A stretch of DNA of 34,860 bases from positions 1-34,860 of the forward strand of contig JAUZRQ010000068.1 of NCBI GenBank assembly GCA_030950365.1, in the 5' to 3' direction. The notes under the pieces are model-generated. The model was not told where the DNA came from. It saw nothing but the letters and a program-made list of their open reading frames with translations, and made no database searches. The translations under genes and the position numbers were made by a program. This DNA comes from Candidatus Zhuqueibacterota bacterium (lineage in GTDB: Bacteria; Zhuqueibacterota; Zhuqueibacteria; Zhuqueibacterales; Geothermadaptataceae). Positions 5,137 through 30,692 of the stretch are shown one piece after another. Numbering within the stretch: the first letter of the stretch is position 1; every line of letters starts with the position of its first letter.

Positions 5137-5682
5137 ATGAACCCACTTGAGTTGATACAGAAATACTACCAGCCGAAATCACTGGCGTATCGCATTTTAG
5201 TAGAACACAGTCAGCGAGTGGCCGAAAAAGCGCTAAATATTGCCGAACGGATCGGCGCAAATGATCTGGATATGCGCTTTCTGGAAGAGGCCGCGCTGCT
5301 ACATGATATCGGCATATTGTACGTCAACGAGCCGCAAATCGGTTGCCATGGCGACCGGCCTTATGTGTGCCACGGCTATCTCGGCCGGGAACTGCTGGAA
5401 AAAGAGGGGCTGCCGCGGCACGCTATCGTGTGTGAAACCCATGTGGGCGTCGGCATCACGCGTGAGGAGATCGAACGGCACGGCCTGCCGCTACCAGCGC
5501 GAGATATGCTGCCACAAACCCTGGAAGAAACAATCATCGCCTTTGCGGACAAATTCTACACCAAGCATCCGAACCATCTCTACGAAGAAAAAACCCCCGA
5601 TGAAATTCGACGGCGACTGGCGAAGTACGGCCCGGGAAAAGTGGCCATTTTCAACCGGTGGCTGGAGATGTTTGGTGTGTAG
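5137..5682 (+). CDS. HD-domain (HDIG) phosphohydrolase
   Basis: This 181-residue single-domain protein has an HD metal-dependent phosphohydrolase fold. Ligands visible are His24 (VEHSQRV), His56-Asp57 in the HDIG sequence LLHDIGI, and Asp138 in FADKFYTKHP; additional histidines are at His80 and His95. The size and layout match stand-alone HDIG proteins often annotated simply as 'HD domain protein', whose substrates are mostly nucleotides or nucleotide-like phosphates. It sits 55 bp after the trmB-like gene on the same strand and may be cotranscribed with it. No strong Shine-Dalgarno is visible (GGGAA 4 nt before ATG). The substrate cannot be inferred from sequence. Confidence 0.8.
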   Translation: MNPLELIQKYYQPKSLAYRILVEHSQRVAEKALNIAERIGANDLDMRFLEEAALLHDIGILYVNEPQIGCHGDRPYVCHGYLGRELLEKEGLPRHAIVCETHVGVGITREEIERHGLPLPARDMLPQTLEETIIAFADKFYTKHPNHLYEEKTPDEIRRRLAKYGPGKVAIFNRWLEMFGV

Positions 5683-5722
5683 GCAACAGGCATTTTAATA
5701 GCGAGGTAGCAATCCGCCATGC

Positions 5723-5750
5723 TTGAGCTAATCTGCGCCCATTTTATCAT
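5723..5750 (+). promoter_or_regulatory. Possible promoter of the DUF3592 gene
   Basis: TTGAGC, a 16-nt spacer and TATCAT lie 22 bp before the ATG at 5772. The spacing is one base short of the others in this window and the leader would be very short, so support is modest. Confidence 0.3.
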
Positions 5751-5771
5751 ACAAAATTCAAAGGAGAAACC

Positions 5772-6323
5772 ATGTCCCTGCTTCTGATGTTTCTCATCCT
5801 CATCGCGGTTGGCAGCCTTGTGGGCTGGCTGCTGTCGCGCACCGCATTGTTTAGGCATCTGCCCGTTTCGGTGATGAGCCTGCTTACCGCCCTGGCACTG
5901 GCCGGCGGCTATCTTTTGCAACTGGAATACCGTCATCTGCAGGAGAAACTCACCGAACGCGCCTGGCCCACGGTGACCGGATACGTGATCGAGGCGCGCA
6001 TCGATACCAGCCGCGCGCTCATGCCCAGCATTCTGTACGAATATGAAATCAATGGCCGCCGGTACACCGATACCACCGATCTGCATATACCGGCGTTTGG
6101 CGGCAAGGCCAAACGGCTGGAAACCGCAGATCAGGTGGTGAAGTCGTTTCCGCGAGGCAAGGCCGTCACCGTGCATTATAATCCGGCCAATCCAGAACAA
6201 TCGGCATTGCGGGTGGGGCCGACGTGGGACATCTATATGAAACTGGGATTCGGTGGATTTCTACTGCTGATCAGCAGCGCAGGGCTGGTGCTGGGCCAGG
6301 TATTGCGCCACAAGGCCGGCTAA
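5772..6323 (+). CDS. DUF3592 domain membrane protein
   Basis: This 183-residue protein has two N-terminal hydrophobic helices (about 2-20 and 31-50). A soluble, probably extracytoplasmic beta-rich segment follows: WPTVTGYVIEARID, then YEYEINGRRYTDTT, then VTVHYNPANPEQSAL (about 65-150). It ends with a C-terminal transmembrane helix (about 157-178). The order WPxxxGxV ... Y.Y.VNGxxY ... V.VyYnPxNPxxs.L is the signature of DUF3592, a family of unknown function common in many bacteria. AAGGAG precedes the ATG by 6 nt. The next gene is convergent, with 72 bp between stops and no obvious terminator. Confidence 0.85.
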   Translation: MSLLLMFLILIAVGSLVGWLLSRTALFRHLPVSVMSLLTALALAGGYLLQLEYRHLQEKLTERAWPTVTGYVIEARIDTSRALMPSILYEYEINGRRYTDTTDLHIPAFGGKAKRLETADQVVKSFPRGKAVTVHYNPANPEQSALRVGPTWDIYMKLGFGGFLLLISSAGLVLGQVLRHKAG

Positions 6324-6395
6324 TGCCGGTTCATGGCGACAACTCGCTCCTCCGCCCCGTGAAACCACATTGCTTGTAGTGAACCGGTTGGCGGA

Positions 6396-8042
6396 TCACC
6401 GTACCAGCAGCAGCTTCTGCGACCAGTGATGCCCGCCTACCGACAGACGCACAAAATAAATCCCCGAGGGCTGGTTCACCGCATTCCAGATTACCCGGTG
6501 GCGACCGGCCGTGAACAGCCCTTGCGCCAGCACGGCCACCTCTCGCCCGGTTGCGTCGTAAATCGCCAGGCGCACCTCCGTGGCCACTGGCAATTCGAAT
6601 TCCAGCGTGGTTTCGGGATTAAAGGGATTCGGATAATTCGGCCGCAGGGCGAACCGATCCGGCAGCGCCGTCAAGTCGTCGTTGGCCACGCCGGTGACCT
6701 GATCGGTGTAATAGTAGCCGAACAGGATCATCATCTCCTCCGAGCTGAGCAGGCCGAAGCCCAGCGCACGGTCAGTGGTGTTGTTGTAGGTGGTGATGAG
6801 CCGCAGGCCCTGACCGGGCTCCAGGGTCAGCGGCGGATCGATTTCCAGGATTGGCGGGTGCTCCCAGTCGTAAGCGATGTAAATCAGCTCACCATCGCGC
6901 GGCCCACCGGCAATTTCCACACGGAATTCGGTCATGTGTTCGTGGGCATGCGAGAACAGTTGAAAAATGTGCATGCGTTCCCGGGTGTAATACGTTTTGG
7001 TGAGCGTCGTGACCTGCTGCGGCGGTAAATAGATGTCCGTGTTGTTCAAAAACAGCACCTCGGCGATGTGCTCGATCTCTGAGGGATCGGCAAAATGCAA
7101 ATTCACGTAAATCTCACCCTGAATCTCCGAACTGCTGCGATTGGCGTAATGCGCATTCAGGTCGAAGCCCTTGCCAGACGGCAGCCGCAGCGCCACGCCG
7201 GGTGGAAAATGATAGTTTAACGCCGGCCACTGCGTGCCAGCAAAAAATTGCTGGAATTGCATCGGAAACAGATTGGCGCCGATGTAATTGCCATTGGCAT
7301 CGCGGATGTCCCGGTAAGTGCGCGCCTGCGTCTCAATGCCGGTCATCACGAAATAGGGCGTGTCATCCCGGTAGGTGTACAAAATGAAATGATGGCTTCC
7401 CGGACGCAACCGCATTTCGATGCGTTTGATAAACCGGTCTTCGTTATGATTCAGCGGTTCATAATAGAAAAATTCGCGGTCAAAATTGGGCTGCACCGGA
7501 AAGGGGCCGAGGTGAAATTGAATACCATTCTGCGGCGGCTCCAGCGCCACGAACTCGGGCGGCGTGTAGCGCGTGGTATCATCCAGCACGGCCGGATCGA
7601 CCACCTGCCCCTGCCGCGGCGCGCCGGCGATGATCCACTCGCGGATCAATTTCAGCTCGCCGTTGGTCAGCGCTGGCCCTCCCAGCGGCATGATGGCGCC
7701 ATAATACGGATGATCTGAATAAAAATGCTCCTGATCCGGCGCATTGACTTTTTCCCAAAGGAAGCTCTTGTACAGTCCGGCCAGCCCCTTGTTGCTGACA
7801 CGGAACAGACCGTCCTCACGCGCGGCGCTGTTTTTGGGCGGTACGTTCACGAGCTGAGCGTAGCTGGAGTCGGCGGTCAGCACCAGGCCCGACTGCCTCG
7901 CGAACGAGGTTCCGGGCTGGTGACAGCTCACGCAATAGCGGTTGAAAATGGATTGCTGAATGAGGGTGTACGTATCGTTCTGAGCGAGGAGCGATGAAGC
8001 CAATCCCCAGAAAATCAGAATGAGCCAAGTTCGGAGTGCCAT
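6396..8042 (-). CDS. Exported PHM-like copper monooxygenase with cytochrome c motif and FCB sorting tail
   Basis: This 548-residue secreted protein has four parts. Residues 1-20 are a signal peptide ending SLLAQ. Residues ~25-145 form a cytochrome-c-like region with heme-binding CVSCH (37-41), a likely axial Met118 (IMPLGG) and the typical closing segment LIREWIIAGAP. Residues ~165-445 resemble the two beta-domains of peptidylglycine/dopamine-type copper type II monooxygenases. Here His217-His218 (GSHHFIL) and His298 (NAHYAN) could be CuH/CuA ligands, His365 and His367 (SHAHEHM) the CuB histidines, and Met437 or Met438 (SSEEMMILFGYYY) the CuB methionine. Residues ~468-548 are a FlgD-Ig-like/type-IX-type C-terminal domain starting NYPNPFNPETT. 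Known relatives hydroxylate organic substrates with O2 and reductant; the fused heme could deliver electrons (inference). GGGGAAGG precedes the ATG. Confidence 0.8.
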   Translation of the reverse strand: MALRTWLILIFWGLASSLLAQNDTYTLIQQSIFNRYCVSCHQPGTSFARQSGLVLTADSSYAQLVNVPPKNSAAREDGLFRVSNKGLAGLYKSFLWEKVNAPDQEHFYSDHPYYGAIMPLGGPALTNGELKLIREWIIAGAPRQGQVVDPAVLDDTTRYTPPEFVALEPPQNGIQFHLGPFPVQPNFDREFFYYEPLNHNEDRFIKRIEMRLRPGSHHFILYTYRDDTPYFVMTGIETQARTYRDIRDANGNYIGANLFPMQFQQFFAGTQWPALNYHFPPGVALRLPSGKGFDLNAHYANRSSSEIQGEIYVNLHFADPSEIEHIAEVLFLNNTDIYLPPQQVTTLTKTYYTRERMHIFQLFSHAHEHMTEFRVEIAGGPRDGELIYIAYDWEHPPILEIDPPLTLEPGQGLRLITTYNNTTDRALGFGLLSSEEMMILFGYYYTDQVTGVANDDLTALPDRFALRPNYPNPFNPETTLEFELPVATEVRLAIYDATGREVAVLAQGLFTAGRHRVIWNAVNQPSGIYFVRLSVGGHHWSQKLLLVR

Positions 8043-27499: not shown

Positions 27500-28228
27500 T
27501 TATTGATCCAACGGAAATGTTTGTTCGGCAAGCTTCAATTGCTCGGGGCGGCCGAGGTCGATCCAGCGCGCCGCATCGCCGCGGTAGCCCGCGATACGTT
27601 CGCCGGAGGCCGCCAATTTCAGGTAAGCATCCACGATCGAAAAACATACCTCATCGGGAAGAAGCGGGAAAATAGCTGGTGAAATGATGTGTATCCCCAT
27701 GAAGGAGAGCGGCGTCACGGCGCCGGCATCCGGCACCACCAGCCGCTCTTCGCCAAGCTGCACATGCCGCCAGCCTATGATCCGCAGATCGGCGTCGAAC
27801 AACAAATACCGGCTGGTTTGGCGTTGCCGCACCGCCAGCGTGGCCAGATTGCCGCGCTGGTCATGTGCGGCCAGCATGGCCGATAAATCCAGATCGGTGA
27901 GAACATCCACATTGTGCAAAATAAACGGCCGACCATCATCAAAAAACCAGGACGCCCGCTTAAGACCGCCGCCGGTGTCCAGCAGCTCCTCCTCCACCGA
28001 AAATTCGATCCGCAGCCCAAAGGCGTCGCGCTCGCGGACGAATTCGATAATCTGCTCGGCCAAATGGTACACATTGATGATGATTTCTTCCACGCCGAAG
28101 CTTTTGAGGCGGAGAATGACGTGTTCGAGTAACGGCTTGCCGGCCAGCGGCACCAGGGCCTTGGGGATGCGATCGGTGAGCGGCCGCAGGCGCGTGCCCC
28201 GTCCCGCAGCCAGAATCATGGCCTTCAT
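27500..28228 (-). CDS. murU: MurU-like sugar-1-phosphate nucleotidyltransferase
   Basis: This 242-residue protein has the NTP-transferase fold. Visible are LAAGRGTRLRPLT (6-18), PKALVPLAGKPLLEH (22-36), LLDTGGGLKRA, LHNVDVLTD (metal-binding Asp) and ARWIDLGRPEQL at the C terminus. It is short, like MurU (MurNAc-1-phosphate uridylyltransferase of peptidoglycan recycling) and related mannose-1-P guanylyltransferase-like proteins. The assignment to MurU rests on the adjacent AmgK-like kinase, the classical amgK-murU pair. The start ATG at 28228 lies 5 bp after the stop of the kinase gene. A longer open frame reaching upstream is a shadow of the kinase gene. Confidence 0.75.
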   Translation of the reverse strand: MKAMILAAGRGTRLRPLTDRIPKALVPLAGKPLLEHVILRLKSFGVEEIIINVYHLAEQIIEFVRERDAFGLRIEFSVEEELLDTGGGLKRASWFFDDGRPFILHNVDVLTDLDLSAMLAAHDQRGNLATLAVRQRQTSRYLLFDADLRIIGWRHVQLGEERLVVPDAGAVTPLSFMGIHIISPAIFPLLPDEVCFSIVDAYLKLAASGERIAGYRGDAARWIDLGRPEQLKLAEQTFPLDQ

Positions 28229-28233
28229 GCCGG

Positions 28234-29688
28234 CTAGACCCCCACCATAGGTTGAAACTGCTCCTGCATTTCCAGTTCGCGGTGCCGGACCTCCACATCC
28301 ACATCGAAATGCTCCTTGATGATCCGCGCCAGCCGGTTGGCGCAATACACCGACCGGTGCTGACCGCCGGTGCAACCGAACGCGACCATGAGATCGGTGA
28401 AATTGCGCTTCTGGTAATTTTGAATCACCTGCGCGATGATCGCATTGACGTGGCGCAGGAATTGATGCACATCTTCTTCGCGATCCAGGAAGGCGATCAC
28501 CGGCTCGTCGTTGCCGGTGAGATTGGCGTATTCGGGATAGCGGCCGGGATTCGGAAGCGCTCGGCAATCGAACACGAAGCCGCCGCCGTGGCCTTTGTCA
28601 TCCCACGGGATGCCGCGCTTGTACGAAAAACTCTGGATGCGCACCGTAAGCCGGAGATCGGCGTTACCGATTTGCCGAAGCATGGACGAACGCACCAGGC
28701 GGTTCCAGGCGTCGGTGAGCGCCGGCAGCTTCACGGGCAATTGCGCTGTGCGCAGCAGCCATTCGAGATTGCGGATGGCATACGGTACGCTGCGCAGAAA
28801 ATGCGTTTTGCGCTCATAGAAACCGCGAAAGCCGTACGCGCCCAGCGCCTGCATGATGCGGATGTACACATAGCCGTAATAGTACTGCAAAAAGCTTTCG
28901 CGGTCGATGGGCATGAGTTGCTCCACCGCAGCGATGTAATGCTCTAACAGCGCATCGCGAACGTCCTGCGGAATATCGGCTTTTGCATCGAACAGCAGCG
29001 AAGCGATGTCGTATTGCAGCGCGCCGCGACGTCCGCCCTGGTAATCGATGAAATACGGTTCGCCGTCTACCAACATCACGTTGCGGGACTGAAAATCGCG
29101 GTACAGAAAAAAGTCGCGATCGGCCTGCAGCAGAAAATCGGTGAACCGCTGGAAATCGTCTTCCAGACTTTGCTCATCAAACGGGATTTTGGCCAGTTTG
29201 AGGAAATAATATTTGAAGTAATTCAAATCCCACAACATGGATTGACGGTCGAAACTGGCGCGCGGGTAGCACACACTGAAATCCACCACTTTGGCGGCGC
29301 GGATTTGAAATTGCGGCAGCCATTCCACGACCTTGCGGTAGGTCTCGATCAGCCGGTCGCTGAAACCCTCTTGCTTCCGGATTTCGGTGAGATATGAAAA
29401 CAGAGTCACATCGCCGAGGTCTTGCTCGAGGTAGATATTTTGATCGAGATCCTCGGCATAAATTTCGGGCACCGGCAGACCGATATCGCGAAACTGGCGA
29501 CTGAACGTCAGGAATGCGATGTTCTCCTTCCGGTCGGGATTGTATGCGCCAATGGCGCGTTTGCTTTTTCCGGTGATGCGGAAGTATTTGCGGTCTGAGC
29601 CGTGCGCCGGCAGTGGCGCGATGCCGGTCGCCGTTTCGCCGGCCCAGCGTTCAAACAGCTCGGCCAGTTTTTTCTGAACTTTTTTCAC
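28234..29688 (-). CDS. AmgK-like sugar kinase fused to RapZ C-terminal domain
   Basis: This 484-residue protein has two domains. Residues 1-330 form an aminoglycoside-phosphotransferase-like kinase with GSDRKYFRI (30-38), LEQDLGDVTLFSYL (87-100), LYRDFQSRNVM (Asp198, Asn203) and FIDYQGG (Asp215). This pattern fits AmgK, the anomeric MurNAc/GlcNAc kinase. Residues ~347-484 match the C-terminal domain of RapZ: VRIQSFSYKRGIP, GHGGGFVFDCRALPNPGR, and FGCTGGQHRSVYCANRLA (437-454), which in E. coli RapZ forms the glucosamine-6-phosphate pocket. The RapZ N-terminal P-loop domain is absent. GTG start, with GAGG spaced 5 nt. The murU-like gene follows after 5 bp, so the two are one operon. Confidence 0.85.
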   Translation of the reverse strand: MKKVQKKLAELFERWAGETATGIAPLPAHGSDRKYFRITGKSKRAIGAYNPDRKENIAFLTFSRQFRDIGLPVPEIYAEDLDQNIYLEQDLGDVTLFSYLTEIRKQEGFSDRLIETYRKVVEWLPQFQIRAAKVVDFSVCYPRASFDRQSMLWDLNYFKYYFLKLAKIPFDEQSLEDDFQRFTDFLLQADRDFFLYRDFQSRNVMLVDGEPYFIDYQGGRRGALQYDIASLLFDAKADIPQDVRDALLEHYIAAVEQLMPIDRESFLQYYYGYVYIRIMQALGAYGFRGFYERKTHFLRSVPYAIRNLEWLLRTAQLPVKLPALTDAWNRLVRSSMLRQIGNADLRLTVRIQSFSYKRGIPWDDKGHGGGFVFDCRALPNPGRYPEYANLTGNDEPVIAFLDREEDVHQFLRHVNAIIAQVIQNYQKRNFTDLMVAFGCTGGQHRSVYCANRLARIIKEHFDVDVEVRHRELEMQEQFQPMVGV

Positions 29689-30107: not shown

Positions 30108-30692
30108 ATGGACAGGATACGCCAAATACTTCGGCTGGGGACTGAGGACTCTTTACGGCAATTGCACGAGTTTTTTCAGAAAATGCTCGGCCTGGCCTTT
30201 TACGATTTGAACCTGCAGGCGCACCGCGACGCCCACGTCTATCTGGCCGATCGTCTCACCTTTTTTGCCCGTACGGATCATCTTTACCGCATCAAATCGC
30301 TGCCCGACTGGAAACTCGAAACGGTGGTGGAAATTTTGCTGCAACTGGAATCGGCGCGGCAGGGCGACATCCTGCTGAAACAGCACGAGGAATGGCTGGT
30401 GTTGCGGCACATCGGCGATTTCACACTGTTCATGACCGGCATGTTCCGCGAATACGTACAGCGCATCGGGGTGATGGATTTTTACCAGACCAAAGGCAAA
30501 GAGGCGTATGCCGATCTGGCCGGACATCTTGGCCGCGGCGGGTTTCAGGAGGAAGAGCGGCTTTTTTCCGGACTGAACCAGTATTTCGAGTTGTACACCG
30601 GGGCCATCGATTACATGAAGAAGGTGTATTTCCACTACGAGCCCATCGACCGCATGCTGAAATCGGTCATCGATGCGCTGAGCCGGTGGTGA
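30108..30692 (+). CDS. Conserved-looking hypothetical protein, alpha-helical
   Basis: This protein of 194 residues starts at the ATG giving MDRIRQILRLG. It is rich in predicted helices (SLRQLHEFFQKML, ETVVEILLQLESARQGD, FMTGMFREYVQRIG, EPIDRMLKSVIDAL) and has no signal peptide, membrane segment, metal motif or nucleotide motif that I recognise. Codon use and GC content look like the neighbouring genes, which supports it as real. An in-frame ATG 69 bp upstream (30039) adds residues from AT-richer sequence; neither start has a Shine-Dalgarno. No function is proposed. Confidence 0.6.
   Translation: MDRIRQILRLGTEDSLRQLHEFFQKMLGLAFYDLNLQAHRDAHVYLADRLTFFARTDHLYRIKSLPDWKLETVVEILLQLESARQGDILLKQHEEWLVLRHIGDFTLFMTGMFREYVQRIGVMDFYQTKGKEAYADLAGHLGRGGFQEEERLFSGLNQYFELYTGAIDYMKKVYFHYEPIDRMLKSVIDALSRW

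Follow-up and report, generated by a model that had tools for sequence, protein, structure and literature searches.

The contig analysed here (the window, 34,860 nucleotides from a Candidatus Zhuqueibacterota bacterium) carries a gene in which an AmgK-like kinase is fused to the C-terminal domain of RapZ (RapZ-C), followed by a gene for a MurU-like nucleotidyltransferase. What does such a domain do on a sugar kinase? RapZ is known as an RNA-binding adaptor, and its conserved C-terminal domain is spread far wider than the GlmY/GlmZ network. The original prediction, made from the sequence, was that the fusion joins a recycling kinase of the amgK-murU pair to a sensor of an amino-sugar phosphate.

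Architecture of the fusion protein and its operon

The features of the locus are reported in table 1. The coordinates first given for the two genes fit, and the MurU-like reading frame (28228-27500) does begin 5 bp past the stop codon of the fusion. A 193-amino-acid open reading frame without a Pfam match (30111-30692, + strand) is divergent from the pair.

Table 1. Features of the fusion gene and its partner in the window.
Feature	Position	Strand	Description
Fusion gene, AmgK-like APH-fold kinase + RapZ C-terminal domain	28234..29688	-	484 aa, GTG start
Kinase domain	28924..29619	-	PF01636 match, aa 24-255, 3.4e-11; AmgK models cover aa 28-317
Catalytic loop D198-F-Q-S-R-N203 (RDFQSRN)	29080..29097	-	D, Q, S, R and N invariant in 37 fusions
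RapZ C-terminal domain, aa 347-473	28270..28650	-	PF22740, 1.2e-37, full model 1-121
GHGGG loop, aa 366-370	28579..28593	-	Insertion typical of kinase-linked RapZ-C, absent from canonical RapZ
NPGR, aa 380-383	28540..28551	-	Gly and Arg at the positions of E. coli RapZ His190 and Trp191
Phosphate-binding loop GCTGGQHRSVY, aa 438-448	28345..28377	-	CTGGxHRS invariant
MurU-like sugar-1-phosphate nucleotidyltransferase, 242 aa	27500..28228	-	PF00483, 4.9e-24; MurU NCBIfam 144.5 bits

The Pfam search bears out the assignment of the C-terminal part to RapZ (129.2 bits for PF22740; cut-off 27). E. coli RapZ is the top match among the solved structures compared with it, and a profile search of the PDB with the domain alignment gave RapZ only, even at an E value of 10. 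The whole protein was modelled by AlphaFold with a mean pLDDT of 92.4, and Foldseek paired the model with the APH structure 3csv (TMt 0.78) and with E. coli RapZ. For RapZ-C alone, the pLDDT is 94.3 and the match is 5o5s, the RapZ C-terminal domain (TMt 0.93). The N-terminal P-loop half of RapZ (PF03668) is missing from the protein, as predicted, and has no match in the whole source genome, where the PF22740 search returns the fusion as its one match and no second RapZ-C. The kinase residues singled out beforehand, Asp198 and Asn203 in RDFQSRN and Asp215 in IDYQGG, show no variation across the 37 aligned fusions.

Among NCBIfam families, the kinase part is matched best by two AmgK models, with 57.7 and 52.7 bits (1e-15 and 4e-14) against cut-offs of 550 and 500. 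MurU is the best model for the partner, at 144.5 bits against a cut-off of 250, while other nucleotidyltransferase models give 107 and 91 bits; its best PDB matches are 4y7t and 8hhd, the latter named MurU. In an Acinetobacter pair, which has the order AmgK then MurU, AmgK scores 246 bits, also below the cut-off, and MurU passes with 313.9 bits. AmgK is a remote outgroup in the kinase tree. Since the scores lie far below the equivalog cut-offs, 'AmgK-like' and 'MurU-like' are fair names and, judged by sequence, equivalence to AmgK and MurU is only probable. The proposed amgK-murU pair thus holds for gene order, spacing and catalytic residues, but not at the level of equivalogs (57.7/550 and 144.5/250). 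The likeness to AmgK-MurU of Pseudomonas and Acinetobacter, an APH-fold kinase closely followed by a MurU-like gene, goes with two further differences: a fused or adjacent RapZ-C, and coexistence with MurQ (see below).

Distribution and gene order

When species genomes were scanned with the alignment of fusions, at least 567 related stretches turned up. The best 80 of these, a set biased toward close kin of a fused query, are all fused, and they span KSB1, Calditrichota, Neomarinimicrobiota, Bacteroidota, Ignavibacteriota, Chlorobiota, Acidobacteriota, Elusimicrobiota, Latescibacterota and others. The fusion is therefore conserved, as had been guessed for FCB genomes, and it extends beyond them to Acidobacteriota, Elusimicrobiota and one NC10 MAG. 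Its presence across many phyla rules out a chance or assembly join. Matches to the domain in phage collections look like bacterial genes in phage-labelled contigs and were rejected as a phage system.

Two public Bacteroidota proteins, WP_005858754.1 (Parabacteroides distasonis) and WP_237923178.1 (Bacteroides finegoldii), have the same fusion followed by a nucleotidyltransferase gene. Both are named 'RNase adapter RapZ' but lack the N-terminal half of RapZ and score 106 bits, against 244 required by the RapZ model. The records that hold them (L120:6007-7437 and L125:5998-7428) are labelled as plasmids; their genes look chromosomal.

Within the class of the source genome, 40 genomes were compared, the source included: the kinase is present in 35 and RapZ-C in 34. 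RapZ-C occurs once per genome, always beside the kinase (34/34) and never without it. Ten of the loci fetched, plus an eleventh (L132), have one gene for the kinase and another, adjacent, for RapZ-C, with the MurU-like gene third in order. In the kinase tree these split forms group, with full support, in a single clade that also includes L024 and L131. The first of these two (1504-2934) is a fused form, which represents either a second fusion or a late survivor; in the second (5335-7493, genome G023), the kinase and MurU-like genes lie about 320 bp apart and the genome has no RapZ-C. The AmgK outgroup of this tree is too distant to root the order of fused and split forms. Because RapZ-C is a separate protein in the split clade, control in cis is not obligatory there.

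Co-occurrence with murU, one of the checks proposed with the original prediction, was surveyed. A MurU-like gene lies downstream in 91 of the 106 loci with room for it, with a 4-bp overlap in 35 of those 91. Fifteen loci have no adjacent MurU-like gene; nine of their genomes, all with the fused form, were checked and all nine carry it elsewhere (1e-42 to 2e-76). A comparably close MurU-like gene is absent from all four kinase-less genomes of at least 85% completeness.

These neighbourhoods bear on the main rival to a role in MurNAc salvage, namely that the substrate is a different sugar (GlcNAc, GalNAc or one of the envelope), which the pair turns into a nucleotide sugar destined for polysaccharide or lipopolysaccharide, with RapZ-C sensing the supply of amino sugars. 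Neither enzyme attains its equivalog cut-off, the other nucleotidyltransferase models score near MurU, and no gene of the window besides the pair itself points to peptidoglycan. On the other hand, the AmgK and MurU models are the best for the two proteins, the gene order is that of AmgK-MurU, and no conserved glycosyltransferase or polysaccharide gene was found as a neighbour. We regard a different substrate as rather unlikely.

Kinase-linked and canonical RapZ domains

The motif CTGGxHRS is present in all 112 kinase-linked RapZ-C domains, and the C, R and S of this loop also in 15 of 15 canonical ones. In a tree of 99 kinase-linked and the 15 canonical domains, the two groups stand apart with a support of 99. 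Residues D182, R184, N188, C247, R253, S254 and H276 (E. coli numbering) are kept in both. The kinase-linked group is distinguished from RapZ (YhbJ/YvcJ) by the lack of the P-loop N-terminal domain, the GHGGG insertion, Gly190, Arg or Lys at 191, Arg236 and Phe238. Position 190 is Gly in 98 of the 99 kinase-linked domains. The exception is the separate RapZ-C of L132 (5721-6137, genome G036), which has His at 190 (NPHY) and a GNGGG loop, and which looks intermediate between the canonical and kinase-linked types.

The positions that differ have known functions in E. coli RapZ: H190 is an essential part of the sulphate/malonate pocket, W191 matters for the contact with the N-terminal domain and R238 is among the RNA-facing basic residues; the conserved D182 is required for self-interaction of the C-terminal domain (PMC9841335, PMC5737377, PMC7073468). 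The E. coli C-terminal domain alone binds GlcN6P with a KD of 10 nM (PMC7073468), probably in a pocket that includes the CTGGxHRS-type loop (PMC9841335). The fusion thus has the complete GCTGGQHRSVY loop that had been noticed, but not the full E. coli pocket, and with Gly in place of His190 its ligand may differ from GlcN6P. The RNA contacts R238, K194, R196, K203, R211 and K251 are lost in kinase-linked domains, with Phe for R238 in all but one and varying residues at the others. As far as the alignments tell, the linked domain still has its phosphate loop and dimer strand but no longer the contacts to RNA and to the N-terminal domain. Since the RNA contacts are gone and the pocket is different at 190, one should not extend GlmZ-like RNA control to the fusion.

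The same residues weigh on the proposal that RapZ-C is a tail for dimerisation or RNA binding without metabolite control, the protein being a moonlighting mRNA regulator as E. coli RapZ is. Asp182 is invariant and K170 is retained in many fusions, as this proposal would have it; yet the six RNA contacts are lost, no Rfam family matches in the window, and a mere dimer needs no invariant phosphate loop. Such a role appears very unlikely.

The domain might also be a relic of a lost RapZ. We searched 31 genomes outside the class set, picked for having the fusion, and in 11 of them (from Acidobacteriota, Elusimicrobiota and NC10) a further RapZ-C with a higher score lies in a different open reading frame. 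All eleven show the canonical residues, and a simple search pattern for Walker A matches six of the frames. The canonical-type RapZ frames of five Acidobacteriota (L139, L140, L146, L147 and L149) gave no match to this pattern, which may reflect a variant P-loop or an over-strict pattern. Full-length rapZ, whose absence was another proposed check, is lacking from the source genome. A simple relic of RapZ is rejected on two grounds: in the 11 genomes a canonical-type RapZ-C exists alongside the fusion, and the kinase-linked domains group in a single clade.

Two routes of MurNAc use

In the source genome, murQ and anmK share a contig. Next to anmK are genes for a BadF-type (NagK/MurK-like) kinase and an alternative GlmU (TIGR03991); the three stand in a row (L134:10482-13946, contig C125) and make up a second cluster for amino-sugar recycling. 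Among the 34 RapZ-C genomes of the class, MurQ is over the cut-off in 30, and nine have no AnmK match. Genome G023, which has the kinase and MurU-like genes without RapZ-C, has neither an AnmK match nor a MurQ over the cut-off; this single case is in line with a role of RapZ-C at a branch point. In beta- and gammaproteobacteria, MurQ and AmgK-MurU are mutually exclusive (PMC5371407). In Tannerella forsythia, both routes have been described as branches of MurNAc use (PMC7670621).

Another possibility is that RapZ-C has a catalytic role of its own and acts on a phosphorylated amino sugar, preparing or removing sugar for the kinase. Its invariant Cys and Arg (C-X5-R-S) would transform a phospho-amino sugar, for example MurNAc-6P to the MurNAc that feeds the kinase, and RNA control in E. 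coli would be a function taken on late by an ancient metabolic enzyme. Freeing MurNAc from MurNAc-6P is the job of MupP in Pseudomonas. The C, R and S of the loop are invariant in the 112 kinase-linked and 15 canonical domains, as expected of a catalytic site, and split operons place the domain between kinase and MurU. Moreover, the C247S substitution abolishes the activity of E. coli RapZ, the crystal of its C-terminal domain with GlcN6P probably contains a transformed product (PMC9841335), and in Pseudomonas a phosphatase is required between AnmK and AmgK (PMC5371407). Against catalysis, the best 50 of 172 PDB matches from Foldseek are to RapZ only and include no Cys-phosphatase fold. The C-X5-R-S motif resembles a phosphatase loop, but a Cys-phosphatase reading finds no support in the fold. 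The distribution of MurQ and AnmK given above shows no complementary pattern with the domain, and thus no call for a MupP substitute. We consider an enzymatic RapZ-C improbable, more so than a different sugar substrate.

Proposed role of the fusion

The explanation that we prefer, and to which we give about an even chance, is that the protein serves UDP-MurNAc salvage as an amino-sugar 1-kinase and carries, in the same chain, a phospho-amino-sugar sensor that regulates it. Phosphorylation of MurNAc (and perhaps GlcNAc) at C1 would be the task of the kinase; its product would then be converted to a UDP-sugar by the MurU-like enzyme. RapZ-C would dimerise the kinase via the conserved strand, and its CTGGxHRS loop would bind a phosphorylated amino sugar, either GlcN6P or GlcNAc6P/MurNAc6P. 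Binding of this ligand would raise or lower kinase activity and so split recycled MurNAc between UDP-MurNAc and the coexisting catabolic route through MurNAc-6P and MurQ.

The domains, the invariant loop, the operon, the co-occurrence, the loss of RNA contacts and the coexistence with MurQ are directly established, and from them we infer the kinase substrate, the RapZ-C ligand, dimerisation and a direction of control. The AmgK-MurU gene order, the constant position of RapZ-C beside the kinase and the frequency of MurQ (30/34) point toward a salvage kinase; the sub-cut-off scores, Gly190, the pair without RapZ-C in G023 and the split clade point against a salvage sensor. Both the intact phosphate loop and the metabolic branch point are in keeping with a sensor role: a kinase responsive to the phospho-amino-sugar pool could determine which MurNAc route is taken where both are present.

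Both domains are already known, and the fusion is present in public records, including the two RefSeq-annotated Bacteroidota entries. As far as could be seen, the kinase-RapZ-C architecture of these known parts is new, widespread and unstudied. Literature searches, whose coverage lay outside most subscription journals, found no paper that describes the fusion and none joining AmgK with RapZ; APH and RapZ occur together in one paper, with a single mention of each, and the one paper with both RapZ and Bacteroides deals with E. coli and its resistance to phage.

The name 'RNase adapter RapZ' would seem misleading for the fusion proteins of RefSeq-annotated Bacteroidota. In hundreds of species, RapZ-C is tied to one sugar kinase without the RNA contacts, and its role outside the RNA network, to sense or to transform an amino-sugar phosphate, becomes directly testable on one soluble protein. 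The fusion also points to possible control of the branch point within the kinase itself in genomes that have both MurNAc routes.
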